Assembly (NCBI GenBank): GCA_017474045.1
Contig: JAFUHX010000056.1
Span: 1-64,000 of the forward strand
DNA: 64,000 bases
Origin: Clostridia bacterium
GTDB lineage: Bacteria > Bacillota > Clostridia > Oscillospirales > Acutalibacteraceae
Reading direction: 5' to 3'
Shown: in pieces, positions 39,198 to 53,493 of the stretch
Layout: every line of letters starts with the position of its first letter
Position numbering within the stretch: position 1 is the first letter of the stretch
Position numbers and translations under genes: made by a program
Notes under the pieces: generated by a model
Database searches by the model: none
Told to the model about the DNA's origin: nothing
Seen by the model: the letters and a program-made list of their open reading frames with translations, nothing else

Positions 39198-40904
39198 ATG
39201 GCTAAATATATGATTGTTGACGGTATTCGTGTTGAGTTTACCGATGAAAGAAACGTTCTTCAGGTTGTTCAAAAGGCCGGTATTCATCTTCCCACCTTCT
39301 GCTACTATACTGAGCTTTCAATTTACGGTGCTTGCCGTATGTGTATGGTTGAGGATTCAAGGGGAAGCGTTATGGCTGCTTGTTCAACTCCTCCCAGAGA
39401 TAAAATGGAAATCAGAACAAATACTTCACGTCTTCATGACTACAGAAAGATGATTCTTGAGCTTCTTTTAGCTTCTCATTGCCGTGATTGCACCATTTGC
39501 GAAAAAGACGGAAGATGTCGCCTTCAGATGCTCGCTACCCGTTTTGGTCTCAATCAGGTAAGATTTAAAGACACTCGCCCCGAAATGCCTATTGATGACT
39601 CTTCAATAGCAATAATAAGAAACCCCGGCAAGTGTATTCTTTGCGGTGACTGCGTAAGAATGTGTAACGAAGTTCAGCATGTTGGCGCAATTGACTTTGC
39701 ATATCGTGGTTCAAATGCTATTGTAACACCTGCTTTCGGAAGAACTCTTGCTCAGACTGATTGTGTTCATTGCGGTCAGTGTGCAGCTGTTTGTCCCACA
39801 GCGGCTATTGTTGTAAAAAGCGATCTCAAAAACGTTTGGAAGGCTCTTTATGCTCCTAACACAAGAACTGTTGTTCAGGTTGCTCCTGCGGTTCGAGTTG
39901 CTCTTGGTGAAGAATTCGGTCTTAAACCCGGCGATAACTCAATCGGAAAGATTTTCACAGCACTCAGAATGTGTGGCTTTAATACTGTTTTTGACACATC
40001 TTTTGCCGCTGATCTTACCATTATGGAAGAGTCGAAAGAGCTTGTTGAAAAGCTTAAAAAAGGTGACACACAAATGCCTCTTTTCACTTCTTGCTGTCCC
40101 GGTTGGATCAAGTTCGTTGAAACAAAGCATCCTGATTTAATGCCTTATGTTTCCACCTGCAAGTCTCCCATGGAAATGTTTGGTGCTGTTATTAAAGATT
40201 ACTATAAAAAGGCTGATGAAGAAAGCGGACTTAAAACCGTTTCTGTTGCAGTAATGCCTTGCAGCGCTAAGAAAGCTGAAGCCGCAAGAGATGAATTTAA
40301 AACAAACGGTGTTCCCGATGTTGACTATGTTATAACGACAACTGAGCTTATCAAAATGATTCGTGAGCTTGGAATTCAGTTTAACGAAATTGAACCTTCA
40401 GCTCCTGATATGCCGTTTTCTATCAGCTCAGGTGCCGGTATGATTTTCGGAACTACAGGCGGTGTAACAGAAGCTGCTCTTCGCCGTGTAGCCGAAAACA
40501 GCCAATATGCTATGAAAGAAATTGAATATAGCGGTGTCAGAGGTTTTGACGGCGTAAAGAGTGCCTACGTAACTCTTGGCGACACAGCCCTCAGAATTGC
40601 CGTTGTTTCAGGTCTTGGCAATGCAGATGAGCTTATCAAGAAAATCAAAAGCGGAGAAGAGCATTTTGATTTTGTCGAAGTTATGGCTTGTCCCGGCGGA
40701 TGCGTTTCAGGAGCAGGTCAACCTCATGCTTATGTTGAAAACAAGAAAAAGCGTGCTGCCGGTCTTTATACAACCGATAAATCTGCTCTTGTTAAGCGTT
40801 CAAACGACAACCCGGTTGTTATGCACATGTATGAAACAGGAGTTCTCAAAAACAGAGCTCATGAATTGCTTCATGTTCATTATCATACTTGTGACAAGAA
40901 ATAA
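39198..40904 (+). CDS. hydA: [FeFe] hydrogenase catalytic subunit
   Basis: 568 residues. N-terminal [2Fe-2S] domain (YGACRMC), His-Cys 4Fe-4S motif (HCRDCTICEKDGRC), two 4Fe-4S motifs (CILCGDCVRMCNEV, CVHCGQCAAVCPTA). The H-cluster domain has TSCCPGW, MPCSAKK and MACPGGCVSGAGQP. It catalyses reversible H2 formation. ATG 39198 is chosen: AAGGAGG lies before it, and the longer frame from 39177 overlaps the previous gene. The operon is complete as HydABC-type. An integrated mobile element starts 10 bases after the stop codon (position 40915). Confidence 0.95.
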   Translation: MAKYMIVDGIRVEFTDERNVLQVVQKAGIHLPTFCYYTELSIYGACRMCMVEDSRGSVMAACSTPPRDKMEIRTNTSRLHDYRKMILELLLASHCRDCTICEKDGRCRLQMLATRFGLNQVRFKDTRPEMPIDDSSIAIIRNPGKCILCGDCVRMCNEVQHVGAIDFAYRGSNAIVTPAFGRTLAQTDCVHCGQCAAVCPTAAIVVKSDLKNVWKALYAPNTRTVVQVAPAVRVALGEEFGLKPGDNSIGKIFTALRMCGFNTVFDTSFAADLTIMEESKELVEKLKKGDTQMPLFTSCCPGWIKFVETKHPDLMPYVSTCKSPMEMFGAVIKDYYKKADEESGLKTVSVAVMPCSAKKAEAARDEFKTNGVPDVDYVITTTELIKMIRELGIQFNEIEPSAPDMPFSISSGAGMIFGTTGGVTEAALRRVAENSQYAMKEIEYSGVRGFDGVKSAYVTLGDTALRIAVVSGLGNADELIKKIKSGEEHFDFVEVMACPGGCVSGAGQPHAYVENKKKRAAGLYTTDKSALVKRSNDNPVVMHMYETGVLKNRAHELLHVHYHTCDKK

Positions 40905-40914
40905 ATGCAAATTT

Positions 40915-40947
40915 AAGAGGTAACACTTTAGCCAAAGCCCCATAAGG
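40915..40947 (+). repeat. Left inverted arm (attL half)
   Basis: AAGAGGTAACAC (40915-40926), spacer TTTAGCCAAA, GCCCCATAAGG (40937-40947), preceded by TT. Inverted counterpart of 52628-52663. Confidence 0.85.
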
Positions 40948-40997
40948 CAGTAATTTCAAAAAGCACCAACTTACGGGCGTTGCAAGGAAAGAAAATC

Positions 40998-41029
40998 GGA
41001 GAGAAGTTTCGGCTTCTCTCTTTTCTTGT
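40998..41029 (+). terminator. Terminator just inside the left end
   Basis: GAGAGAAG, loop TTTCGG, CTTCTCTC followed by TTTTCTTG. It would stop read-through from the hydrogenase operon into the element. Confidence 0.65.
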
Positions 41030-41098
41030 ATCCGCACATTCGACAAAGCCTCTTTTAATTTGTACAATGAAGTTACAAAATTAAAGGAGGCAAATTTT

Positions 41099-41464
41099 AT
41101 GTCAAACAAAAATAGTATCAGTTATCACCGTGTTGGCGACTATCTCATCCCTAACCTCATTATCTCGCCTGAAGAAGCAAATATCACCCTTGGCAAATGG
41201 GGAATGATGCACAAATCTTATCTTGAGAAGCACAAAAAGGCACTATTTAACTCACTACTTATCCAAGGCAAACTTTATCAACACTGTGCAGATATTGAAA
41301 ATCAGGCAAAGGATATGTTTGATGCTCTTGTTGAGCAGATGAAAGAAGCTGAAGGTGTAACCGAAAAATTAAAAGAACACAACCAATGGGAATGGATTCA
41401 GAAGATAAATAACATTCAACAAAGAGCAAGCGAAATAGTTTGCAACGAACTCATCTATACATAA
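41099..41464 (+). CDS. tnpV: TnpV-like transposon-encoded protein
   Basis: 121 residues. The SYHRVGDYLIPNL N-terminus, GKWGMMHKSYLEKHK, LIQGKLYQHCADIE and the end QQRASEIVCNELIYT match the TnpV family found in Tn4451-like elements. The molecular role of TnpV is not established. ATG 41099 with AAAGGAGG. It is the first gene inside the left end and is followed by a GC-rich terminator. Confidence 0.87.
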   Translation: MSNKNSISYHRVGDYLIPNLIISPEEANITLGKWGMMHKSYLEKHKKALFNSLLIQGKLYQHCADIENQAKDMFDALVEQMKEAEGVTEKLKEHNQWEWIQKINNIQQRASEIVCNELIYT

Positions 41465-41473
41465 AGATAAATT

Positions 41474-41505
41474 CCCCGCAGGCCTTGCAGCCTGCGGGGT
41501 TCACT
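41474..41505. terminator. Terminator between tnpV and the permease gene
   Basis: CCCCGCAGGC, loop TTGCA region, GCCTGCGGGG then TTCACTTT. It separates convergent genes and may act on both strands. Confidence 0.75.
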
Positions 41506-44328
41506 TTATATATTCTCGTTTCTGAGAGTTTCAACCGTATTTTCTTTATTGACCTTTTTAATAGAGTATACCATACTAAGTGCAACAATTATAAATACAC
41601 TTGCAATTGCTATAATAAACTTATCCCAAGGAATATAGAATCCCATTGAGTAGCCACTGTCTGATGCTACGAGATATATCAGATATGTCATAGCTAATGA
41701 AACCGGAAGTGAGAATAAAAGGCTCTTTACACCGTAAAGTATGGATTCAAATATCATCATCTTTCGCATACCCTTACTTGTAAGACCGACAGATTTAAGC
41801 GTTGCGAACTCTCTTCTTCTGAGAGAAATGTTGGTTGAGATTGTGTTGAAAACATTTGCAGCCGCAATCATAGAGATGAGAACTATAAAACCATAGGCAA
41901 GAACCTTTGCAACAGTCACAAGGGCCCTTATGCTTTCAATTTCTGCAGCGTAATCATACACGCTTACATGATTGGTATCTCCGCCAATATCTCTGATAAG
42001 TCGGCTTACATCACTCGCTATTTTGCTGTGGTCTTCACCGATAATATATGCGTGAGTCTGCCAATAACCTTCAAGCATAACCTTCCCTTTTACCGATTCG
42101 GGATAAATAAGGTTCGTGTTGTATCCTGCAAAATACGGCTTTTCCGAAAGGAAGGCTCCGATAGAGATTTTCAAATGATTTACTACCTCTTTTTCCGTAA
42201 AATATTTTTTGTTTTCATCGGTAAATATCTCACCCTCATCGTATCCTACATCGTAAACATAATATGTGACACCGTCTTTTTCTTCTGTTCCGTCATAATA
42301 ATACAGTTCGCCGTTTTCCTCAAACCAGGGAAGGATTTCAGTGATTTCAAGAGTTGCAGGGAAAGCATCTTTATTAAGGAAAGGTACTATATAAACTCTT
42401 TCTTTATTATCTGTCTGATAAATATAAGTTCCTATGTCATAAACAAGAGCTTTTGGATTTTCCTCGTCAAAATATCCCTCTTCACTTATCCCTTCCTTTT
42501 TTAGAAGTCTTCTGAAAGCATCATCGTCAATAAAGTTATAAGTAAATATTCCATTCAGCTCATTTTTCTTATCTGCTGAATTATCACGTTCCTTATTAAT
42601 CATATTCAGATATTCTTCTGAAACAAATTTTTTATCCACGTTAAAGTCCGTACCCATCTCCTGAGTGAGAGTAAACTCGTCAATTCCGTCAACTGTCTTT
42701 AAACCGTTGTAAAGCTTAGTCCTGAATTCTTCTGTGTCTGTAAACGGTTCTTCGTCAAGTCTGTCCTCATAGTTGAATATGTTGATGGCAACATCGTAGT
42801 TCATATCCTGACTTTCAGCATCAACAATGTCGGTAAAATATGTGGCAAGCGAAGAAGCGGAAATAAACAGTACAACGGAAACAAAAAGCGAGAAAACTGT
42901 GGCACGGTATTTGCGCTTATTTCTCTTGAAATTCTTGGAAGAGAGTGTTGCTTCAAATCCGAAGAGCTTCTGAGTAAGGAGAGACACCCTGACACTGTGG
43001 CGTTTGATTTTAATCTCATTTGACTGTCTTACAGATTCGATAGGATTAATTCTTATGGCCTTTCTTGCAGGAATGTATGCTGAAATAACAACTGTCACAA
43101 AGCTTATTACGCTTGCAGCAATGATTGCCAAGGGTGAGAACACAAACTGCATTTTAAGGTCTGTGAGGTCAGCAAGGAAGGTTGAAATTGTATCACTTAA
43201 AAAATGGAAGGTTACCGCAATACCTAAACAACCGGAAACAAGACCTATAGGAATACCGACAACACAAAGAACGGCTGCTTCATAAAGAACGGATTTTCTT
43301 ATCTGCTTTTTGGTAGCACCTATACTTTTGAGAATACCGATCTGCTTTGTTCTTTCACCTACGGAGATTGAAAATGAATTATAAATAAGAGACACAGAAC
43401 CAAAAACAATAAGTCCAATCAGAATGGAGAGTAGACCAACTATCAACACTGGAAAAGCAGAATCAAAGCTGTTGAAGCTGTACATAAGTAAATCATGGTT
43501 TATTGAGCTTCCTATAATACCGCTTAAAGAATTAAGAATATCTGTGTTAAATTTATTGTATTCGATAGGCTTTTTCAGAACCGTATAAACACTCTGCATA
43601 TTAGTGTTGCCCGGCTCGTTTATCGTGAAAGCAGTGTATCCCGGTGCCGTATAGGGCTCAACGGAAGACCGGTCAGGTCTTACACAAAAGCCTACAACTG
43701 TATAGGTTTTCTCTTTTGTATTTATGAGCACCTCTTCAGCTTTTTCTCCGTCAGGCTGACAGAAGGGTCTTTGCTGTGTCAGCTTCTGCCAATTATCTCC
43801 GTCAAGGGCTTTATACTCTTCTTCGCTGATGTTTAAAAGGTCAGTCCACTGCCTTTGTCCGACCTGAAGAGTGATTTTTTGACCGAGCTTAAGCTGAACT
43901 CCGCCGTTCGAATAAAGATGGTCAGAAACTACAATTTCATTGCTGTTTTCAGGCAGTCTTCCTTCGGTCAGATGTATAGGCATTACATCCGTAAAATCAG
44001 TCGGTACGCCTGCGATATACAGATAAGGCTTACCTTCGTTCGATGAACCGATTTCAGCATAACCTATATCCTGAATGTAGGTGTATTTTTCTACTCTTTC
44101 ATCCTCGGTGATTTTTGAGACATCGTCAGTTTTTATGTCATAAAAACCTACATGATATTTACCGTTATATGTTTCAGCATAGTTTACAAGATAGCTTTGT
44201 ACCGTAACAAAAGCCTCCGTTGTTGCCGTAAACATTGCAACGGAAAGAATGATGCCGATTATGGTGACAATCGTTCTTGTTTTGTTTTCCTTAAGTGACC
44301 GATTGGTAAACTGTTTAAAGATATTCAT
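41506..44328 (-). CDS. ABC transporter permease with two FtsX domains
   Basis: 940 residues. One N-terminal transmembrane helix, a large extracellular part (about 50-290), an FtsX bundle of three helices, then a second helix/large extracellular part/FtsX bundle. This duplicated topology (SalY/LolC-MacB type) occurs in transporters for antimicrobial peptides or lipoproteins. ATG 44328 has GAGGTG just upstream; a longer frame reaching 44379 overlaps the ATPase gene. Only 10 bases separate it from the ATPase gene. No substrate is assigned; the adjacent intramembrane-sensing kinase favours peptide antibiotic resistance. Confidence 0.86.
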   Translation of the reverse strand: MNIFKQFTNRSLKENKTRTIVTIIGIILSVAMFTATTEAFVTVQSYLVNYAETYNGKYHVGFYDIKTDDVSKITEDERVEKYTYIQDIGYAEIGSSNEGKPYLYIAGVPTDFTDVMPIHLTEGRLPENSNEIVVSDHLYSNGGVQLKLGQKITLQVGQRQWTDLLNISEEEYKALDGDNWQKLTQQRPFCQPDGEKAEEVLINTKEKTYTVVGFCVRPDRSSVEPYTAPGYTAFTINEPGNTNMQSVYTVLKKPIEYNKFNTDILNSLSGIIGSSINHDLLMYSFNSFDSAFPVLIVGLLSILIGLIVFGSVSLIYNSFSISVGERTKQIGILKSIGATKKQIRKSVLYEAAVLCVVGIPIGLVSGCLGIAVTFHFLSDTISTFLADLTDLKMQFVFSPLAIIAASVISFVTVVISAYIPARKAIRINPIESVRQSNEIKIKRHSVRVSLLTQKLFGFEATLSSKNFKRNKRKYRATVFSLFVSVVLFISASSLATYFTDIVDAESQDMNYDVAINIFNYEDRLDEEPFTDTEEFRTKLYNGLKTVDGIDEFTLTQEMGTDFNVDKKFVSEEYLNMINKERDNSADKKNELNGIFTYNFIDDDAFRRLLKKEGISEEGYFDEENPKALVYDIGTYIYQTDNKERVYIVPFLNKDAFPATLEITEILPWFEENGELYYYDGTEEKDGVTYYVYDVGYDEGEIFTDENKKYFTEKEVVNHLKISIGAFLSEKPYFAGYNTNLIYPESVKGKVMLEGYWQTHAYIIGEDHSKIASDVSRLIRDIGGDTNHVSVYDYAAEIESIRALVTVAKVLAYGFIVLISMIAAANVFNTISTNISLRRREFATLKSVGLTSKGMRKMMIFESILYGVKSLLFSLPVSLAMTYLIYLVASDSGYSMGFYIPWDKFIIAIASVFIIVALSMVYSIKKVNKENTVETLRNENI

Positions 44329-44338
44329 TACGGTCACC

Positions 44339-45022
44339 TCACTTCTGAAGAAGTCTGTCACTCGCGATTTTACCGTCATTAATGGTGATGATTCTGTCTG
44401 CCTGTAATGCGATATTACTGTCGTGAGTGATAACGATAAGTGTCTGACCGTATTTTTTGTTGGAAAGCTTAAGGAGTTCTAAGATTTCGTGACTGTTTTT
44501 TGAGTCAAGGTTACCTGTCGGCTCATCGGCAAGCATAACAGCAGGATTATTGATGAGTGCTCTGCCGATAGAAACTCTCTGCTGCTGACCACCTGAAAGC
44601 TCGTTGGGAAGATGTTTTTCTCTGCCATTAAGAGAAAGCAAGCCTATGAGTTCATCAAGATAAGATTTATCAACCTTTTTACCGTCCATAAGCACGGGCA
44701 ATGTGATATTTTCAGTAACATTAAGTACAGGGATAAGATTATAGAATTGATAAATGAGTCCCACCTGTCTGCGACGGAAGATAGCAAGCTGATCTTCATT
44801 CTGTGCATAAACATCCTGTCCATCAAGATAAACCTTACCGCTTGTCGGTCTGTCAACACCGCCTAAAATATGTAAGAGTGTACTTTTACCCGAACCTGAT
44901 GGACCGATAATAGCAACAAACTGTCCTTTGGGCACGCTGAAGCTCACATTGTCGAGGGCTTTAACCTGATTTTCGCCCTCGCCGTAAATTTTTGAAAGGT
45001 TTTCAATTTTTAAAATATCCAT
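44339..45022 (-). CDS. ABC transporter ATP-binding protein
   Basis: 227 residues of the MacB/SalX ATPase type. Walker A GPSGSGKST, Q-loop LIYQFYNLIPVLNVTEN, signature LSGGQQQR, Walker B VMLADEPTGNLD, H-loop VITHDSNIA. AAAGGAG lies before ATG 45022. First gene of the transporter operon, transcribed from the regulated promoter near 45055-45108. Powers the two-FtsX permease. Confidence 0.94.
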   Translation of the reverse strand: MDILKIENLSKIYGEGENQVKALDNVSFSVPKGQFVAIIGPSGSGKSTLLHILGGVDRPTSGKVYLDGQDVYAQNEDQLAIFRRRQVGLIYQFYNLIPVLNVTENITLPVLMDGKKVDKSYLDELIGLLSLNGREKHLPNELSGGQQQRVSIGRALINNPAVMLADEPTGNLDSKNSHEILELLKLSNKKYGQTLIVITHDSNIALQADRIITINDGKIASDRLLQK

Positions 45023-45054
45023 ATTGAATTACTCCTTTTCTTTATTGTGGCTTC

Positions 45055-45108
45055 ATTGTACCAACTTAAAATTACAGTTAGGTGACTCTATTATTACAAA
45101 AACGTCAC
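45055..45108 (-). promoter_or_regulatory. Activator-type promoter with four 11-bp-phased repeats
   Basis: On the minus strand the -10 is TACAAT (45060-45055) with no -35 match at 45083-45078 (ACCTAA). Instead GTGA (45108-45105), GTAA (45097-45094), GTCA (45086-45083) and GTAA (45075-45072) lie exactly 11 bp apart. This is the spacing of OmpR/PhoB-type direct repeats, positioned where an activator replaces the -35 contact. The probable regulator is the response regulator at 46106-46783. Confidence 0.6.
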
Positions 45109-46109
45109 ACAACCTGTTTGTAAAATCTTATTATGAATTCTGCACCGCCAGACTGACAGTTTCCTGCTTTTACTGTTCCGTTGTGAGCTGTGATTATCAT
45201 TTTGGCAAGATTGAGACCTATACCGAAGCTCTCCTTTGAAGAGTTTTTACCTTTGTAAAATCTTTCAAATATATGAGGAATGTCTTCTTCATTGATACCC
45301 TTACCCGTGTCGGTTATGATTACTTCTGTATAGATCGGAGTATCTGTTGCTATTACTGTTATACTGCCGTTTTCGGGAGTGTGTTCGGTACAGTTTTTAA
45401 GGATATTGCCAAAGGCTTCAAGACACCAGGCAAAATCACAGTTCAGGGAAATGTCGTCAATATTCAGAACAAGACTCTGATTTTTTATATCCATCGGAAT
45501 CATAATCGGTTCTGCGGATTTTTGTATAAGAGTTTTCAAATTCGTTTCTTTCTTTTCAAACTGCACCGTTCCTGCATCAATTTTTGAAATCTTAAGAAGC
45601 ACAGACACAAGATATTCTGTTTTTGTAATAAGCGAAGAAAGTTCTCTTAAAAGTTCTTCTCTTCTTTCCTGTGTTATATCGTGGGCCTCAATAAGTGACA
45701 GAATAAGATTTATACTTGTAAGCGGAGTTCTCAGCTGATGTGAAATGTCGGCAATAGAATCTGCAAGGAAGGTTCTGTCTTTTTCGAGCTTATCCTTCTG
45801 GTCACGAAGACGAACAAGCATTTTCTGAACATCGCTTTCCAAGACGGAAAGCTCACCTTCACCGTAGGATTTAATGTTAATTGTATCGTTACCGTGAAGG
45901 ATTTTATCTATGCTTTCACCAAGATTATTAAGCCTGTTATATCTTTTCTTTGTAAACACAAGAAAACTGCCTATCAAAAATGTACTTAAAATCAAAATAC
46001 ATACAGCGGTAAATTTAGAATAAAAAGCTGTAATAAAGCATAGTAACAGTGAGGGTATCACTGTTACCAATAAAAATTTTCTTATTTCGGGATTATTTGA
46101 AAGTTTCAT
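45105..46109 (-). CDS. Intramembrane-sensing histidine kinase
   Basis: 334 residues. The only sensory region is a pair of transmembrane helices (about residues 12-28 and 30-50) with almost no loop between them, as in BceS/VncS-like intramembrane-sensing kinases. There is no HAMP domain of normal length. Phospho-acceptor ADISHQLRTPLTSINLIL. ATPase with N box FGNILKNCTEHTP and IFERFYKGKNSSKESFGIGL. Such kinases take their signal from a partner ABC transporter, consistent with the neighbouring genes. ATG overlaps the stop of the response regulator gene. Confidence 0.88.
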   Translation of the reverse strand: MKLSNNPEIRKFLLVTVIPSLLLCFITAFYSKFTAVCILILSTFLIGSFLVFTKKRYNRLNNLGESIDKILHGNDTINIKSYGEGELSVLESDVQKMLVRLRDQKDKLEKDRTFLADSIADISHQLRTPLTSINLILSLIEAHDITQERREELLRELSSLITKTEYLVSVLLKISKIDAGTVQFEKKETNLKTLIQKSAEPIMIPMDIKNQSLVLNIDDISLNCDFAWCLEAFGNILKNCTEHTPENGSITVIATDTPIYTEVIITDTGKGINEEDIPHIFERFYKGKNSSKESFGIGLNLAKMIITAHNGTVKAGNCQSGGAEFIIRFYKQVV

Positions 46110-46783
46110 TTCTGTTCTCCTAATTTATAACCGAGTCCTCTGACTGTAAGTATGATTTTCGGATTCTGTATATCGTCTTCAATCTTTTCTCTGAGTCTTT
46201 TTATATATACCGTAAGAGTGTTATCATTTACGAAGTCGCCTGCGATGTCCCATATTTCAGAAAGAAGCTTGTTTCTTGTAAGCGTAACACCGGGGTTGTT
46301 TAAAAAGACAAGAAAAAGTCTGTACTCCAAAGCAGAGAGGAAAACATCCTTGCCGTTTTTTGTGACAATTCCCTTATCCATATCAACACTTACATTGCCG
46401 AGTGTCAGCACGCTCTGACTTTTACCCGCTCTGCGAAGAACAGATTTTATGCGGGATATAAGCTCTCTCGGACGGTAAGGCTTTTCTATATAATCATCAG
46501 CACCGATATCAAGACCTGTCACAACACTGAACTCATCAGCAGAAGCGGTAAGAAATATAACGGGACAGTCAGTTACACTCTTGATTCTGTTACAAAGCGA
46601 AAATCCGTTTCCGTCGGGAAGAAGAACATCCAATAATACAAGGTCAAACTGTTTGCATTCGATTTTATTCTCCGCTTCCTTACAGCTGAGAGCGCTGTCA
46701 GTTTCAAAGCCTTCCTGACGGAGAAGCTCACTTAAGTTTTTAACGATGGTCACATCGTCTTCTATGATAAGTATTTTAATCAT
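46106..46783 (-). CDS. OmpR-family response regulator of the element
   Basis: 225 residues. Receiver: IIEDD, LVLLDVLLPDGNGFSL (phospho-Asp), FLTASADEF, DYIEKPYRP. Winged-helix output with SALEYRLFLVFLNNPG and NDNTLTVYIKRLREK. ATG 46783 is chosen with AGAGTGAT upstream; further in-frame codons reach into the promoter. First gene of the regulator-kinase pair, transcribed from a strong promoter at 46814-46842. Confidence 0.92.
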   Translation of the reverse strand: MIKILIIEDDVTIVKNLSELLRQEGFETDSALSCKEAENKIECKQFDLVLLDVLLPDGNGFSLCNRIKSVTDCPVIFLTASADEFSVVTGLDIGADDYIEKPYRPRELISRIKSVLRRAGKSQSVLTLGNVSVDMDKGIVTKNGKDVFLSALEYRLFLVFLNNPGVTLTRNKLLSEIWDIAGDFVNDNTLTVYIKRLREKIEDDIQNPKIILTVRGLGYKLGEQK

Positions 46784-46813
46784 AATATCACTCTTTCCGG
46801 TGGGTATGTAATG

Positions 46814-46842
46814 ATTATACATAAACTAAAGGGTAAAATCAA
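46814..46842 (-). promoter_or_regulatory. Promoter of the element's regulator-kinase operon
   Basis: Minus strand TTGATT (46842-46837), 17-base spacer, TATAAT (46819-46814). Near consensus, implying constitutive expression of the sensing genes. Confidence 0.7.
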
Positions 46843-47158
46843 CTTTTATGACGGATGAGTAATAAAGATGTCGGTCATTAAAAAGCAAGAATGTAATAAT
46901 TTAATAATACATAGAAGAGAATTTTAAAAACATTTCTGTGTTATTTTTGTTACGTGCAGAATTACCTATCAAGGTGAAAAGCGTTTAATCCCCTGCATAT
47001 AAAGCTTTATTGCTATGTTGCGTTTTTTTATTTTCGCTTGTTACTCTATAATGGGTGAATTTTCAAAAGTTCCCTATTATATAATAGAGGAGATTTTCAT
47101 TATATAATAACTGCCCCCACAAATAAAATTTTAAGAGCATAAAAAAAGCAAGATTTCA

Positions 47159-47523
47159 GTATATGAATACCGCATTAGATTTTTTTAACTTAATATTGTT
47201 TACATCACACTCGTCAATTTTGGACGGGTGTTTTTTTATGGCTAAAAAAATTTTCCAACTTTTTTTCAAAAACCAGGAACATTTTACCACTTCTTATGTC
47301 GGGGTATATATGGGAGGAAAAAGTTTTCTTCTCGTGTATAAGTGAATGACCGTCCGAACGAAACAAACCGCCACGACCTTTTTTTGAAGAAAGCGAGCGC
47401 AATTTATTGAAATATGAGTTGACTGCACAGCGCCATAGAGATATGTAGTAATGCCTGTAGGAACTGTTTCGGGTAAAACGGCGAACCCCAAATTCCGGTA
47501 TATGAATACTGCGTCACATTTTT
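47159..47523 (+). repeat. Two-copy repeat GTATATGAATAC(C/T)GC
   Basis: Copies at about 47159-47186 and 47499-47524 share GTATATGAATAC, then GC, T, A and a T tract, about 340 bases apart in direct orientation. The core is itself an imperfect palindrome (GTAT...ATAC). Confidence 0.5.
47208..47238 (+). terminator. Terminator-like hairpin
   Basis: CACTCGTC, loop AATTTTG, GACGGGTG followed by seven Ts. No gene precedes it on the plus strand nearby, so it may be an attenuator or a relic. Confidence 0.5.
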
Positions 47524-47573
47524 CACAGTTGAATATAAACACTCAAAAATAATTTTAGAAAGGAGCTTTACAA

Positions 47574-47669
47574 ATGACTTAGCACAAAGCACAACTTGAG
47601 CCAAATTTGGCTCAACACAAAAACAAACTGAGCCACATTGGCTCAAAAGCGGTGCCGCTTTTGGCGTAA
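47574..47669 (+). pseudogene. Short frame with amber codon at position 3
   Basis: AGAAAGGAG (47558-47565) is followed by ATG 47574, ACT and TAG (47580-47582), and then an open run of 28 codons (HKAQLEPNLAQHKNKLSHIG..., shown partly) to TAA 47667-47669. A K-to-amber change in a former 31-codon gene or leader peptide would explain this. Alternatively the frame is accidental and the DNA is there for its palindromes, which cover most of it. Confidence 0.35.
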
Positions 47670-47709
47670 CTTTTTAAACGAAGAAAAATATGGCATCACT
47701 TACGGTGCC
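47596..47709 (+). repeat. Cluster of four palindromes
   Basis: A perfect 20-bp palindrome TTGAGCCAAATTTGGCTCAA (47596-47615); a related hairpin TGAGCCA...TGGCTCA (47629-47645); AAAAGCGG tg CCGCTTTT (47645-47662); GGCATC...GGTGCC (47692-47709). Confidence 0.65.
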
Positions 47710-47734
47710 ACAAAAACACTTGATTACGGGCGCC

Positions 47735-47870
47735 CTTATCTGCGGTGAAGGAAGACAGACGAAGAGTTTAATTATCCTATGGATGTCTGTCCTACACCGT
47801 AGCGAGCAGGGCATTTGTGTGCCAAATGCCACCCGTTAAGGGAGTGCCCTTAATATCCCCTATGAAGAAA
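47735..47870 (+). other. Candidate origin of transfer (oriT)
   Basis: Directly upstream of mobC. Contains an imperfect long inverted repeat (CGGTG 47743-47747 and GACAGAC 47754-47760 against GTCTGTC 47785-47791 and CACCG 47795-47799) and a perfect hairpin GGCATTTG / CAAATGCC (47810-47830), followed by the asymmetric GTTAAGGGAGTGCCCTTAA. MobP-type oriTs have an inverted repeat beside the nic site just before mobC; the nic site itself was not identified. Confidence 0.45.
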
Positions 47871-47879
47871 GAGAAGTGA

Positions 47880-48194
47880 AAACTTATCAAAGACATCAGA
47901 ATTGTAGCAAGAGTTACAGAAAAAGAGAAAAAGAAGATTGAGCGTAATGCTTCAAAATGCGGATTATCAACAAGTGAATATGTCAAACAAAGGGCATTGG
48001 GCTTTGAACCGAAAGCGGTTCCGCCTGACGCCTTTTTTCATTTTTGTGAAAAGTTCGATGCACTTATTGATATGGGTATTTCAAAAGATATTGAAACCGA
48101 GGCATTTAATCTTCTTGCTGAAATCAGCGATGTACTCATTAAACCAAGAAAGGAGAAGATTGAAAATTGGCAACCACCGGATTTTGGCCCGTAA
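47880..48194 (+). CDS. mobC: MobC-like relaxosome protein with unclear start
   Basis: About 104 residues. The N-terminal part (KDIRIVARVTEKEKKKIERN, then CGLSTSEYVKQRALG) is a ribbon-helix-helix DNA-binding domain of MobC-type accessory proteins, and the end has KIENWQPPDFGP. No ATG, GTG or TTG begins this frame: it opens directly after TGA 47877-47879. A GTG at 47876 with an A run (GTGAAAACTT) would be in frame if one A were removed. So the gene is either frameshifted by one base, started from a rare codon, or affected by a sequencing indel. The overlap with the relaxase start (28 bases) shows the 3' part is intact. Confidence 0.6.
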   Translation, partial: KLIKDIRIVARVTEKEKKKIERNASKCGLSTSEYVKQRALGFEPKAVPPDAFFHFCEKFDALIDMGISKDIETEAFNLLAEISDVLIKPRKEKIENWQPPDFGP

Positions 48195-49531
48195 AGGGTG
48201 ATTTAAAGTCTGTTATTGTTTACGCTGAAAATCCCGACAAAACTATGAATCCAAAATTCTTCGACTCGGATTTGTATGCTACCTTACAGTACGCAGAAAA
48301 CAGCAACAAAACTGACCAAGAGCTTTTCGTCAGCGGTATTAACTGCTCAAAGCATAACGCTTATGCACAAATGGTAGCGGTTAAAAAGAAGTTTGGTGAA
48401 AGAGGTACTATTGTAGCTTATCACGGTTATCAGAGCTTTAAAGAAAATGAGGTCACGCCCGAAGAATGTCATGAAATGGGAATAGAAACTGCAAGAAAAA
48501 TGTGGGGTGACAAATATCAGGTGATAGTTACTACTCACCTTGATAAACAGCATCACCTGCATAACCATTTCGTAATTAATAGCACATCCTTTAAGGACGG
48601 TCTTAAATTCCGAAATAAAATCGGTGACCATTATGAGCTGAGAAAAATTTCTGATGCTATCTGCAAAGAACGGGGCAAATCCGTTCTTGAAAATGCACCC
48701 TTTTACGGCGGTGAGAAAGCAACATATTGGCTTCATAAGCAAGGCAAGAAAACTCACAGAGATATGCTCAAAGAAGATATTGAAATCTGTCTTACCGTTG
48801 CAACAAGTTGGGACGAATTCAGAAGAGTTCTTTTCACTATGGGATATGAGGTTGATTACAGGCGATTTACCATTAAGGCAAAGGATTGGGAAAGAGGTGT
48901 CAGGGTTGAGGGCCTTGGTTATACAGTAGAAGGTATAGAGAAAAGATTCAACGAGACCTATTACAGCGGACATCATCTTGCTGATTGGAACAATTTCTTC
49001 TATGCAAGACGCAGATATTTTCCTCTTGAATCAGTCAGAAAGAAATTGGAGTTCGGTATTGAGCACGGTAAACGACCTGAAGTTATTTATGTAAACACAA
49101 TGTTCCTTTTAATAATCCTGGTGTTTCAGTTGTTAAAGGAGGTTGCAGATGCAATGCTCATATCTCCTGAAATGAGGCACGCCGCAAAGGACTTCAAGCA
49201 GTATGTGGCTGATTATCATTTTCTGACCGACAATCAGATTCAGACTACTGATGATTTAACAGTTACCATTGAAGAAACACAGCTTAAAATTGCCGAGTTT
49301 GAAGAAAAGCGAAGCAAGGCAGACAACAAAAAACGCAGAGCAAGTACCCCTGAAGATAAAGAGAGATATAAAGCCCTGCGTAGGGAGATTACGCAAGAAA
49401 TCACGCCTTTGAGAAAGAAACTCAAACAGGCAGAGGATATTCTTGATAAATCTCCGCATTTATATGAGCTCTTACAAAAAGAGCATCAGGCAGAAATTAA
49501 TAAAATTAGAAAAATAGAAAGGAATAGATAA
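48167..49531 (+). CDS. Relaxase / mobilization nuclease
   Basis: 454 residues, Relaxase domain of the MobP/Tn1549-like class, which nicks oriT and leads the strand into the recipient. N-terminus MATTGFWPVKGDLKSVIVYAE and histidine motif THLDKQHHLHNHFVINS (HxHNH-like three-His motif). It follows with LRKISDAICKERG and KATYWLHKQGKKTHRDML, similar to relaxases of Tn1549/CTn-type elements. The C-terminal third is a charged coiled coil. TTG start 48167, inside the end of mobC, with AGGAG upstream; this start preserves the family's MATT beginning. Confidence 0.88.
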   Translation: MATTGFWPVKGDLKSVIVYAENPDKTMNPKFFDSDLYATLQYAENSNKTDQELFVSGINCSKHNAYAQMVAVKKKFGERGTIVAYHGYQSFKENEVTPEECHEMGIETARKMWGDKYQVIVTTHLDKQHHLHNHFVINSTSFKDGLKFRNKIGDHYELRKISDAICKERGKSVLENAPFYGGEKATYWLHKQGKKTHRDMLKEDIEICLTVATSWDEFRRVLFTMGYEVDYRRFTIKAKDWERGVRVEGLGYTVEGIEKRFNETYYSGHHLADWNNFFYARRRYFPLESVRKKLEFGIEHGKRPEVIYVNTMFLLIILVFQLLKEVADAMLISPEMRHAAKDFKQYVADYHFLTDNQIQTTDDLTVTIEETQLKIAEFEEKRSKADNKKRRASTPEDKERYKALRREITQEITPLRKKLKQAEDILDKSPHLYELLQKEHQAEINKIRKIERNR

Positions 49532-49532
49532 T

Positions 49533-50471
49533 ATGGCTATTAAACCAAAATCAAAAGTATATCCCCGTGATATTGAAGAAAACGATCCCACAAAAGAAAC
49601 CTTATATGACAAAGTACAGAAAGCCCGCACAGAATATGTGTGGGCTAATAAAATACCCATTGAGTATTTGCGTCCCTTTGAAAATCACCCTTACAAGGTA
49701 ATTGACAATGAAGAAATGCAAAACCTTGTTGACAGTATCAATGAGCGTGGCATTCTTACTCCTCTTACTGTTCGTAAAATTTCCGGCACGGAATATGAAA
49801 TTATTTCAGGACACAGGAGATTTTATGCGGCAAAGAAATTAGGCTTTGAATTGATACCTGCTTTCATTTATGAGCTAAGTTATGAAGAAGCCGTCATTGC
49901 AATGGTAGATGCTAATTTACAGAGAGAGCATGTATTACCAAGTGAAAAAGCTCGTGCATACAAGATGAAACTTGATGCACTTAAACACCAAGGTCAAACT
50001 TCTGCCCAAGTTGGGCAGAAGTGGTCTGTTGAACAGGTTGCAGAAGATTCACCCGACAGCAGAAGTCAGGTTCAGAGATATATCAGATTGAATGATCTCA
50101 TCCCCGAACTCCTTGACCTTGTTGATGAAGGGCGAATTGCGTTTACCCCTGCGGTTGAGCTTTCATATTTAAATGAGGTAGAACAGGCTGATTTAGTCGA
50201 AGAAATCCGTGTCTGCGATGCTACTCCGAATTTATCTCAGGCACAAAGGCTTCGTGCAATCAGCAAAGAAGAAGGGCTTACACCTAAGTATATAGGTGAT
50301 ATCTTAGCAGAGGAAAAGGCTAATCAAAGACCGACTATAAAGTTTTCTGTTGAACGCTTACAGAAAGTCGCACCCAAAGTTAAAGAAAGTGACCTTGAAA
50401 ACTTTGTTATGAAGGCCTGTGAACACTATTACAGATATCTTCAGCGACAGCGAAACAGAGATGCGAGGTGA
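49533..50471 (+). CDS. ParB/Spo0J-like partition protein
   Basis: 312 residues. ParB N-terminal nuclease-like domain (PFENHPYKVIDNEEMQNLVDSI region, ISGHRRFYAAKKLGF) followed by a helix-turn-helix (WSVEQVAEDSPDSRSQVQRYIRL). Starts 1 base after the relaxase stop and overlaps the next gene. No ParA partner is present. In mobile elements such lone ParB-like proteins probably regulate or help maintain the excised form. Confidence 0.87.
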   Translation: MAIKPKSKVYPRDIEENDPTKETLYDKVQKARTEYVWANKIPIEYLRPFENHPYKVIDNEEMQNLVDSINERGILTPLTVRKISGTEYEIISGHRRFYAAKKLGFELIPAFIYELSYEEAVIAMVDANLQREHVLPSEKARAYKMKLDALKHQGQTSAQVGQKWSVEQVAEDSPDSRSQVQRYIRLNDLIPELLDLVDEGRIAFTPAVELSYLNEVEQADLVEEIRVCDATPNLSQAQRLRAISKEEGLTPKYIGDILAEEKANQRPTIKFSVERLQKVAPKVKESDLENFVMKACEHYYRYLQRQRNRDAR

Positions 50472-50476
50472 GTAAA

Positions 50477-50749
50477 TTGAAAAATATATTTCCCGATAAC
50501 AATAGCTTATTTGTAGTACCCCCTGAGCCTATTGATGAAAATGAGTTTACAAGTCTTTCTGATATTATGGCATCTCGCAGTGTCGAAGCTGTTGTTGACC
50601 GTAGTAAAACACGTCGATTCGGTGAAGAAATCTTCCAAATGAAAATCGGCGGAACAACCTATGAGGTTTCCACTCATTTTAATCCAAAAGGCAGACAGTG
50701 TATATTTGAGCAGTTCAAGGAACTGATTTTATCTGAAAATTTATTGTAA
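50477..50749 (+). CDS. tnpW: TnpW-like small transposon protein
   Basis: About 90 residues. The conserved part is at the C-terminus (FQMKIGGTTYEVSTHFNPKGR, then LILSENLL), typical of TnpW-type proteins of Tn4451-like elements; N-terminus less conserved. TTG 50477 follows GAGGTGA; a GTG at 50468 in the same frame is the alternative. Role unknown; sits between the parB-like gene and tnpX. Confidence 0.7.
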   Translation: MKNIFPDNNSLFVVPPEPIDENEFTSLSDIMASRSVEAVVDRSKTRRFGEEIFQMKIGGTTYEVSTHFNPKGRQCIFEQFKELILSENLL

Positions 50750-50768
50750 TATCACACATTTGAAAAAA

Positions 50769-50817
50769 GACAACCGGACATTGTAAAATGTGAATATCCT
50801 TGCGATGTCCGGTTGTC
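50769..50817 (+). promoter_or_regulatory. 13-bp inverted repeat before tnpX
   Basis: GACAACCGGACAT (50769-50781), 23-base centre, ATGTCCGGTTGTC (50805-50817), immediately before the ribosome-binding site AAAGGAG of the recombinase. It can be an operator or an mRNA hairpin controlling recombinase synthesis; on the minus strand it is followed by six Ts and might also terminate. Confidence 0.6.
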
Positions 50818-50834
50818 GGAAAGGAGAATATTTA

Positions 50835-52568
50835 ATGACAACTGCAACAAATATTTCAGGACAAACAATAAATGATGAATTAATTACGGCCCTTTACTGC
50901 CGTCTTTCCGTTGAAGATATAAAGGATGATAAATCCAAGAAAAAGAACGGGAGAGTAGATGAGTCAAACAGTATATCCAATCAGAAACAGATTTTGCTTG
51001 ACTATTGTAAAAAACACGGATACAAAAATACAATGTTTTTCATTGATGACGGTATTTCGGGTACAAGCTTTGACAGAAGCGGTTTTAACCAAATGCAGCA
51101 AATGGTTGAAGAAGGCAAGATTTGCAGAATAATAGTAAAAGACCTGTCACGATTTGGTCGTGAGCAGGTCGAAGCAGGCAGATTAACACAAATTGTATAT
51201 CCGTCGCTCGGTGTAACCTTCATTTCAATTCAGGAAAATGTAAACAGTTCCACAGGTGACGGTATGGAGATGTTACCATTCTACAACATCTTTAATGAAT
51301 GGTATGCCGCACAAACCTCAAAGAAAATCCGTGCCGTATGGCAATCAAAGGCTAACAATGGAAAAAGAGTATCTTCTACTGTACCTTACGGTTATGTAAA
51401 AGATGAAAATGACAAAGAAAAATGGCTCATTGATGAACCTGCAGCGGAAGTTGTACGAAAAATATATGATTTATGTCTTGCAGGGCGAGGCCCTTTACAG
51501 ATTGCTCGTGATTTGGAAAAAGAGAAAATCCCGGTTCCGTCAGCTTATTATGAGTCTGTAGGCAGAAAGCACAGACATAAGGTTCCTCTAAATCCATACA
51601 GATGGGACAAGGCTACCATAGTTGTAATTTTAGAAAACAGGCAATATACCGGTTGTGCAGTAAACTTCAAAAGCACAACTGTCAGTTACAAGGTGCATAA
51701 GGTAATCCATAATCCAAAAGAGGACTATCAGATAATCCCTAACATGCAAGAACCTATTATCAGTGAAGAAAAATGGTTAAGGGTTCAGGAGCTTCGTGAA
51801 AACCGTCGCAGACCTACGGCAACAGGAAGAACAAGCTTATTTTCCGGATTGGTTTATTGTTATGATTGTGGTTCAAAATTACACTTTAGTGCTGCAAAAA
51901 GCTTGAACAGAAATCAAGAGTTTTTCAGATGTGCAAACTACAAATCAGGTCGAGGCGAATGTACGGTTCATTATATCCGTGATGTTGTTCTTGAAAAAAT
52001 TGTACTTGACGCTATACGAAACTTAGCAGATTTCATTCGTTACAATGAAAAAGTCTTTTTGTATATGATAGCAAAGCAGAACGATGCTATGAGAAAAGCA
52101 GAATATGAGAAACTGAAAAAGACAGTTGCTGACGGTGAAATCCGCATAAAAGAGTTAGACCGCATTATTGAAAAGGTTTATGAAGATAATGCTCTTGGCA
52201 GAATGGATGATGAACGATGTCGAAAACTGATGGCTAAGTATGAGCGTGAGCAAAAAGAACTTGCCATAACGGTTTTAGAGGGGCAAGAAACATTGAAATC
52301 AGCTGAGCAGAAATCTATTGATTTAAGGTTGCTTCTTCGCACCTTCAGAGAGATGACGGATATACAGGAACTTACACCCACACTTGTTAATTCACTTATT
52401 GAACGTATTGAAGTTCACAACAATGATAAATCAAGCGGACACTGTTTTGTAAAGGTGGATATTTATTTTACAGCAGTCGGAATGATTTGTATTCCGACTG
52501 AGGAAGAAATTATGGCTATGATGGATGAAGCAAGAAACAATCCTCAGGAATATAGCATTGTAGCTTAA
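50835..52568 (+). CDS. tnpX: Large serine recombinase (TnpX type)
   Basis: 577 residues. N-terminal resolvase domain with catalytic Ser25 in ALYCRLSVED and KDLSRFGREQVEAG containing the conserved Arg residues. A recombinase domain follows (YGYVKDENDKEKWLIDEPAA, IYDLCLAGRGPLQIARDLEK). A zinc ribbon (YCYDCGSKLHF ... FFRCANYKSGRGEC) and a long coiled coil (about 400-500) complete the typical large serine recombinase architecture. It would catalyse both excision and integration between attL/attR and attB/attP. ATG 50835 with GAAAGGAG. Sits at the right end, as expected. Confidence 0.93.
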   Translation: MTTATNISGQTINDELITALYCRLSVEDIKDDKSKKKNGRVDESNSISNQKQILLDYCKKHGYKNTMFFIDDGISGTSFDRSGFNQMQQMVEEGKICRIIVKDLSRFGREQVEAGRLTQIVYPSLGVTFISIQENVNSSTGDGMEMLPFYNIFNEWYAAQTSKKIRAVWQSKANNGKRVSSTVPYGYVKDENDKEKWLIDEPAAEVVRKIYDLCLAGRGPLQIARDLEKEKIPVPSAYYESVGRKHRHKVPLNPYRWDKATIVVILENRQYTGCAVNFKSTTVSYKVHKVIHNPKEDYQIIPNMQEPIISEEKWLRVQELRENRRRPTATGRTSLFSGLVYCYDCGSKLHFSAAKSLNRNQEFFRCANYKSGRGECTVHYIRDVVLEKIVLDAIRNLADFIRYNEKVFLYMIAKQNDAMRKAEYEKLKKTVADGEIRIKELDRIIEKVYEDNALGRMDDERCRKLMAKYEREQKELAITVLEGQETLKSAEQKSIDLRLLLRTFREMTDIQELTPTLVNSLIERIEVHNNDKSSGHCFVKVDIYFTAVGMICIPTEEEIMAMMDEARNNPQEYSIVA

Positions 52569-52578
52569 AACAGAAAAG

Positions 52579-52611
52579 ACGGTGCAACCCCAAAAAACGG
52601 GGTTACACCGT
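52579..52611 (+). terminator. Terminator of tnpX
   Basis: ACGGTGCAACCCC, A-rich loop, GGGGTTACACCGT then ATCTTTC. Confidence 0.75.
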
Positions 52612-52627
52612 ATCTTTCAAAAAACTT

Positions 52628-52663
52628 CCTTATGGGGCTGTGCCATTTTTCGTGTTACCTCTT
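52628..52663 (-). repeat. Right inverted arm (attR half)
   Basis: Minus-strand reading from 52663: AAGAGGTAACAC, spacer of 13, GCCCCATAAGG ending at 52628. Same as the left arm with a spacer three bases longer. TT follows at 52664-52665 on the plus strand. Confidence 0.85.
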
Positions 52664-52686
52664 TTTCTGTGCTGTTAAAAACTAAG

Positions 52687-52715
52687 GGTCGAGATTATAA
52701 TCTATAATCTCGACC
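52687..52715 (-). terminator. Terminator of the metG-tatD operon
   Basis: GGTCGAGATTATA, loop ATC, TATAATCTCGACC. On the minus strand CTTAGTTTTTAAC follows. It lies right outside the mobile element and before insertion may have served the hydrogenase operon from the other side. Confidence 0.75.
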
Positions 52716-52722
52716 ACTTAAA

Positions 52723-53493
52723 TTATTCAATGTTAAAAAGCTTCTTTGCGTTGCTGTTGCAGATATCAATGAGTTCTTGTGTTGAAATACCTCTTAATTT
52801 TGCAATAAACTCAGCTGTGTGAGCTATTAAAGAAGAGTCACATCTTTTTCCTCTGAAGGGAACAGGAGCCATATAAGGACAGTCGGTTTCAAGAAGAAGT
52901 CTGTCTAAGGGAATCATTTCAGCAACCTCAACGCTTTTTCTGGCGTTCTTAAATGTAACAACACCGCCAAGACCGATATACATATCGAGCTTAAGAATAT
53001 CCTTAGCCATTTCAACGCTGCCGCCAAAGCAATGAAGAACACCTTTTGGTTTGTGTCTTGATAAGATTTCCAAAGTGTCAGCATGTGCTTCTCTGTCGTG
53101 AACGATAATGGGGAGGTCAAGTTGCTTTGCAAGAATAATCTGTTTTTCAAAAATATCCTTCTGCATTTTTCTCGGCATAGTGTCCCAATGATAGTCAAGA
53201 CCGATTTCACCAACGGCAACAACCTTTTTTCTGCAATAAAGACCTTTAATTTTTTCAAAATCGCTATATGCAATTTCGGGGTCAGTTTCAGGATGAACAC
53301 CTAAAGCGGAAAAAATAAAGTCATATTTTTCGCTTAAGGCAAGGGTGGTTAAAGAAGAATTGAAGTCACAAGCGCAATTAACGATTGCCGAAACACCGCT
53401 TTCTTTAACAGAGGACAGAGTTTCAGCTCTGTCCTCGTCAAACCATTTGTCATCATAGTGGGCGTGAGTGTCAAAAATATTGCAATAACTCAT
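52723..53493 (-). CDS. tatD: TatD family hydrolase
   Basis: 256 residues, TIM-barrel metal-dependent hydrolase (3'-5' DNA/RNA exonuclease family). Motifs FDTHAHYDDKWFDEDR (metal His pair), VGEIGLDYHW, IVHDREAH and LETDCPYMAPVP. Overlaps metG by ATGA and forms an operon with it, the usual arrangement in Firmicutes. Confidence 0.92.
   Translation of the reverse strand: MSYCNIFDTHAHYDDKWFDEDRAETLSSVKESGVSAIVNCACDFNSSLTTLALSEKYDFIFSALGVHPETDPEIAYSDFEKIKGLYCRKKVVAVGEIGLDYHWDTMPRKMQKDIFEKQIILAKQLDLPIIVHDREAHADTLEILSRHKPKGVLHCFGGSVEMAKDILKLDMYIGLGGVVTFKNARKSVEVAEMIPLDRLLLETDCPYMAPVPFRGKRCDSSLIAHTAEFIAKLRGISTQELIDICNSNAKKLFNIE

Follow-up and report, generated by a model that had tools for sequence, protein, structure and literature searches.

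The window analysed here, a stretch of 64,000 nucleotides from contig JAFUHX010000056.1 of a Clostridia bacterium, contains a mobile element between the hydA and tatD genes, and matches to Pfam assigned its coding sequences as follows.

41099 to 41464, plus strand: TnpV-like protein (TnpV, 1.2e-43).
41506 to 44379, minus strand: FtsX/MacB-type ABC permease, cargo (FtsX, 1.1e-40).
44339 to 45022, minus strand: ABC transporter ATPase, cargo (ABC_tran, 2.1e-34).
45105 to 46109, minus strand: sensor histidine kinase, cargo (HATPase_c, 1.2e-19).
46106 to 46822, minus strand: OmpR-type response regulator, cargo (Response_reg, 6.1e-28).
48167 to 49531, plus strand: MobA/VirD2-type relaxase (Relaxase, 1.7e-34).
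49533 to 50471, plus strand: ParB-like protein (ParB_N, 6.3e-21).
50468 to 50749, plus strand: TnpW-like protein (TnpW, 28.3 bits against a cut-off of 25, 1.4e-06).
50790 to 52568, plus strand: TnpX-like large serine recombinase (resolvase, recombinase, zinc ribbon and DUF4368 domains, all above cut-off; open reading frame listed with a GTG start).

All four domains of the recombinase were found, in agreement with an earlier note on this DNA which had proposed a large serine recombinase element, and the combination of recombinase, TnpV, TnpW (both above cut-off), MobA-type relaxase and 2-bp core marks this as a Tn4451-type integrative mobilizable element. No match was obtained in NCBIfam for the TnpV-like or TnpW-like protein, nor in Rfam across positions 40000–54000. 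The cargo combines an ABC transporter, a large FtsX-type permease and a two-component system; sets of this kind are frequently associated with sensing of, and resistance to, peptide antibiotics. With Tn4451/Tn4453 (TnpX) and Tn6104, as described in the available part of PMC3158075, the element has in common the DUF4368-clade recombinase, TnpV, the MobA-type relaxase and a 2-bp target, while TnpW is common to the Tn4451 type by Pfam name; Tn6104 also carries a two-component system and an ABC transporter, like the element in the window (PMC3158075, same part). A related left-end motif (up to two mismatches) was present in 23 of 398 family genomes, the own genome among them, and no recombinase relatives were confirmed in the viral_contigs collection. 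One 2.7-Mb genome (G426, locus L053) gave 24 tnpV matches, the most of thirteen genomes searched (next 15), which suggests an expansion of the element family in this genome. A second left-end-like motif in the own genome (L293, G000:C24:75205-75225), with two mismatches, lies beside an A-tract and is perhaps a remnant.

The two ends of the element are marked by the 12-mers AAGAGGTAACAC (40915–40926) and GTGTTACCTCTT (52652–52663), which are exact reverse complements with TT outside each, and by second blocks located 10 and 13 bases further in (GCCCCATAAGG, 40937–40947, and CCTTATGGGGC, 52628–52638); these features had all been listed in the earlier note and are present where it placed them. 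The 12-mer occurs exactly three times in the whole own genome, at both element ends and once elsewhere, and chance would not account for perfect arms at both ends of a single element, separated by 11.7 kb, though the cause differs from that proposed earlier. In the earlier proposal the arms are attP half-sites around a TT core at 40913–40914 and 52664–52665, a reading that draws on the perfect inverted repeat and on the TT beside both arms, but which we now regard as extremely improbable. When relatives identified through protein searches were compared downstream of their recombinase genes, seven distinct right ends (L052, L053, L132, L055, L182, L058 and L081, with recombinases 89–93% identical) were seen to keep CCTTATGGGGC followed by GTGCCC (GTGTGC in L081), whereas the DNA beyond, arm included, differs; in place of the arm each of the seven has a different short sequence, usually G+C-rich, followed by a T-rich tract, and relatives carry other stems in this position. 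With a core at 40913–40914, moreover, the symmetry ends after 12 bp and the inner blocks fall out of register. The exact arm-plus-block pattern was unmatched in the genome_contigs and viral_contigs collections (from which the own genome was possibly left out), and these searches, together with the differing right ends, rule out the 12-bp arms as a feature conserved across the element family.

An inner inverted pair (40933–40960 and 52615–52642, 82% complementary) was listed first of 149 by the repeat finder, and the position of the core relative to these inner repeats was derived from ten elements with both ends available, namely the one in the window plus nine relatives whose recombinases reach at least 70% identity. 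A search for two-ended elements by motif only found 16, nine of which had a recombinase at least 70% identical; L182 was added to the set after its left end surfaced through a tnpV search, the left end of L184 was set by eye, the motif-search match having fallen on the flank itself, and several of the elements had originally come to light in alignments extending into the flanks, a source of bias. At a single offset, which pairs the two bases left of the conserved left end with bases two and three beyond the conserved right-end block (CC or GC), both ends have the same dinucleotide in 9/10 elements (five TT, three AA and one TA), the mismatch being L184 with AA on the left and AG on the right. 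The offset was both chosen and counted on these ten elements; the best alternative offset gave 6/10, and random re-pairings reached nine in 11 of 20000 cases. More widely, TT or AA occupies the core position at 28 of 34 right ends and 22 of 27 left ends, as against the GA core of TnpX. In the window the core is a direct repeat, TT at 40928–40929 and 52646–52647, and the end features are as follows.

40915 to 40926, plus strand: predicted 5′ arm of the host intrinsic terminator behind hydA (AAGAGGTAACAC), not common to relatives; the rejoined site folds to a 12-bp hairpin.
40928 to 40929, plus strand: TT core, left copy, from the offset in 9/10 elements and as palindrome centre.
40930 to 40947, plus strand: left element end, predicted to form one attP half-site (AGCCAAAGCCCCATAAGG), from the palindrome and the left-end motif in family genomes.
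52628 to 52645, plus strand: right element end, predicted to form the other attP half-site (CCTTATGGGGCTGTGCCA), from the palindrome and related sequence beside the recombinase in relatives.
52646 to 52647, plus strand: TT core, right copy, from the core offset and the palindrome.
52648 to 52666, plus strand: predicted host remainder of loop, 3′ arm GTGTTACCTCTT (52652–52663) and T-tract (52662–52666), from sequence and the rejoined-site fold.

Joining these ends gives CCTTATGGGGCTGTGCCA-TT-AGCCAAAGCCCCATAAGG, an 18-2-18 palindrome with 15/18 symmetric positions, and over the ten elements the symmetry averages 14.2/18, falling to 3.0–6.1 when the right end is shifted by one to four bases. The true attP is thus predicted to be built from the second blocks, symmetric around TT 40928–40929 = 52646–52647, and the element with one core copy measures 11,718 bp (40930–52645 plus TT). 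A symmetric attP with a TT core, as proposed earlier, is retained, with other repeats forming it and another core position; likewise an element of about 11.7 kb stands, and the limits of about 11.75 kb given to the base do not, since the true ends lie inside the arms.

The host DNA on either side of the core was examined by joining, in a script, the 20 host bases from each side of it and folding the rejoined site, with 90 mismatched flank pairs as controls. A strong hairpin with the core in its loop was obtained for 8 of the 10 sites (7/9 without L184), each being equalled by at most 3 of the 90 mismatched pairs, and the mean fold energy of −18.5 kcal/mol, compared with −8.6 kcal/mol for mismatched pairs, was reached in none of 20000 re-pairings. 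The rejoined window site folds into a 12-bp hairpin of −17.1 kcal/mol (−18.5 on the other strand) with TTTTT after it, and so has the structure of an intrinsic terminator, a G+C-containing hairpin followed by a T-tract. L185 (−7.5) and L182 (−8.4) did not stand apart from the controls, since 51 and 44 of the 90 mismatched pairs, respectively, reached energies as low. A stricter test, based on flank alignment without G-U pairs, left 6/10 sites that beat every mismatched pair, while L062 was reached by 14/90 and L186 by 45/90 mismatched pairs, their stems pairing on one strand with G-U. In the two-ended relatives the left flank mostly consists of an A-tract and then the reverse complement of the right-flank sequence, with a different stem for each insertion, and such matching sequences behind an A-tract and before a T-tract appear to be an intrinsic terminator cut in two. 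Most close relatives with checkable ends also split terminator-like hairpins, at other genes. In L281 a whole hairpin lies in the left flank directly outside the element, and its second arm doubles as the expected terminator arm.

By the same reasoning, the 12-bp arms in the window are predicted to be the split stem of the host intrinsic terminator behind hydA and not the element's own ends. As the arms would then be host DNA with the core inside them, the empty site AAATTT-TCTGTGCTG put forward earlier is not expected, and the relatives point instead to the whole-hairpin site AAATTTAAGAGGTAACACTTTTTTCGTGTTACCTCTTTTTCTG; the unequal spacings of 10 and 13 bases arise because those stretches contain host loop bases.

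The stems are accompanied by tracts at a distance of about 12–18 bases from the core. At right ends, in a count that omits nine without a clear motif (pGTC3, L232, among them), a T-tract was present in 30/34 cases with recombinases at least 70% identical, compared with 21/102 control windows in the same flanks; the corresponding figures were 6/12 and 12/36 at 62–70% identity, 20/21 and 12/63 at 55–62%, and 9/12 and 6/36 at 45–55%. Among left ends, 24 of 26 (a set that includes the window) showed an A-tract, compared with a fraction of 0.24 of 78 control windows. The window site itself fits the A/T-tract profile poorly, with a score of 2.6.

A view of a target before insertion came from a relative on the Enterococcus faecalis plasmid pGTC3 (recombinase 58% identical), which ends beside GCTAAAGTTGACGGTTATTTTTTTTG at L232:6980. 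This flank matches 341 plasmid records, and among the 20 matches listed, 18 of the 19 others begin at that very base and the remaining one eight bases further on. In four fetched plasmids the flank runs on into an intact hairpin next to a gene that carries the annotation holin-like toxin or type I toxin PepG1; the break point lies in, or at the edge of, the terminal loop of the hairpin that these four keep whole. The pGTC3 relative thus interrupts a toxin-antitoxin terminator, with a hairpin that predates the insertion; two stretches of the plasmid, together about 31 of its 135 kb, were read for the left end of this copy and did not contain it. Of three congeners matching the L183 locus, one has the flanking genes side by side with no element and a different terminator-like hairpin in the gap; there was no base-level empty-site match in the congeners. 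For hydA, where the earlier note had suggested relatives without the element at hydA-tatD as a check, a DNA search in the genus returned short weak matches only, and a TatD-anchored search covering 31 of 34 genus genomes showed no hydA next to tatD at any of the 29 further loci read; no empty site of this locus was found. Flank searches for empty sites of L065 and L075 likewise found none, and the left flank of L113 matched none of the fetched hits.

Taken together, we consider it very likely that this Tn4451-type element lies in the loop of the intrinsic terminator behind hydA, and that the near branch of DUF4368 serine recombinases mostly picks such targets. What the enzyme would read there is a separate matter. 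The recombinase may respond only to the core and to A- and T-tracts at a fixed distance, terminators simply matching this composition and the stem playing no part, which we hold to be quite plausible if somewhat short of probable: the tracts do peak at a fixed distance from the core, L182 and L185, which are without a strong hairpin, score 14.2 and 9.8 on the held-out profile, and TT or AA cores together with A/T-rich ends are documented for some multi-targeting recombinases (PMC10083194 and PMC13137831, available parts). When a profile trained without the ten real sites was run over TT/AA sites in 1.08 Mb of sequence, elements included, 6 of the 10 genomic sites with top scores (at least 14) were hairpins anyway. 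Over the range of scores, however, hairpins as strong as the weakest of the eight strong ones (cut-off −14.9) formed at 63/227 sites scoring at least 8, 36/85 at least 10 and 12/30 at least 12, as against 8/10 real sites, these being only ten in number, and the window and L062, which have the poorest tract scores among the real sites, both form hairpins. Random TT/AA sites formed hairpins in 12 of 585 cases. Composition alone may therefore not account for the hairpins, and the ten sites point to a role for the dyad without proof. A tentative alternative, which we think plausible but less likely than not, is that the recombinases recognise the terminator dyad or hairpin itself, as symmetric DNA or as an extruded cruciform, in which case a large branch of mobilizable elements would have terminators throughout the genome as landing sites, irrespective of their sequence. 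Nearly random insertion, with survival of harmless insertions at gene ends only, would fit the intergenic location of the sites inspected (the window and L183), but selection for intergenic sites would not place the core in a hairpin loop with tracts at fixed spacing, and we judge this explanation very unlikely.

The preference for terminators has its limits, and as a rule for the whole DUF4368 clade it is ruled out by L133/L134, L234 and L235. The recombinases of L133 and L134 are 67% identical and come from two genomes of one genus; their right flanks are similar by eye and have no T-tract, and the pair is perhaps a more site-specific side branch. L234, a 39% relative, is by eye not at a terminator, and L235, a 34% relative on a Klebsiella plasmid, seemingly lies within a gene judged by eye to encode a topoisomerase. 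Matching flank stems were seen in L142, L144, L147, L212, L213 and L216 (36–44% identical), five of them with a clear T-run after the stem, although these were picked by eye and have no control.

From the ends, core, insertion-specific stems and tracts that can be read in the DNA, we infer an insertion cycle for the preferred reading, in which the element lies in the terminator loop. The recombinase would excise a circle, the joint of which (attP) would be the 18-2-18 palindrome around TT, and attP would recombine with chromosomal sites that the enzyme reads as a TT or AA core, preceded by an A-tract and followed by a T-tract at about 12–18 bases. Such a target would usually have a near-perfect stem between the tracts and thus be an intrinsic terminator, and insertion would split the hairpin and leave one arm at each element end. 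The element carries two candidate replacements for the split hairpin.

40998 to 41021, plus strand: element-borne terminator-like hairpin just inside the left end, called by the scan on both strands.
52579 to 52611, no strand assigned: element-borne hairpin behind the recombinase gene, called as a terminator by the scan on the minus strand only.

While the insertion is predicted to split the terminator behind hydA, these hairpins just inside both ends may replace it and restore termination. A further hairpin, at 52687–52715, faces out of tatD.

Transcription terminators are known as landing sites of group IIC introns and of Tn7 at glmS, which are a retroelement and a DDE transposon, with chemistry unrelated to that of serine recombinases. 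IS1272, a relative of IS1182, offers another parallel. In the available part of PMC5678879 it is described as targeting an inverted repeat or stem-loop by structure and not by sequence, as here, but as an insertion sequence that replaces the stem-loop without duplication, whereas the present elements retain the stem in split form and have a 2-bp core. The integration specificity of Tn4451/Tn4453 has been described as low (PMC5704250, available part), in contrast to the target class of intrinsic terminators found here, and IME_Rho_tet often integrates in small genes (PMC12904643, available part). The multi-targeting large serine recombinases resemble this branch in their many targets and in the presence of DUF4368 in most of the clade; some have TT/AA cores and A/T-rich outer ends as here, while others have GG or non-conserved cores, and their specificity is described as relaxed, with terminator and hairpin absent from the main texts as far as available (PMC10083194, and PMC13137831 on MTI tools). 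The word terminator was likewise absent from the available main texts of PMC5704250, PMC3158075, PMC5678879 and PMC12904643, and among the literature matches listed, judged by title or the start of the abstract and with subscription papers and supplements outside the scope, none reports serine recombinases inserting into terminators. We therefore provisionally regard terminator targeting by Tn4451-type recombinases as new.

The analysis offers an exact and testable rule for attP and attB, which bears on insertion tools built on DUF4368 recombinases, and it carries the caution that the inverted repeats on either side of such an element may belong to a host stem and not to the element ends, which misplaces the boundaries. 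For the elements themselves, it gives the branch known for low specificity or multi-targeting a clear target class, and suggests a way in which they could spread without disrupting genes.
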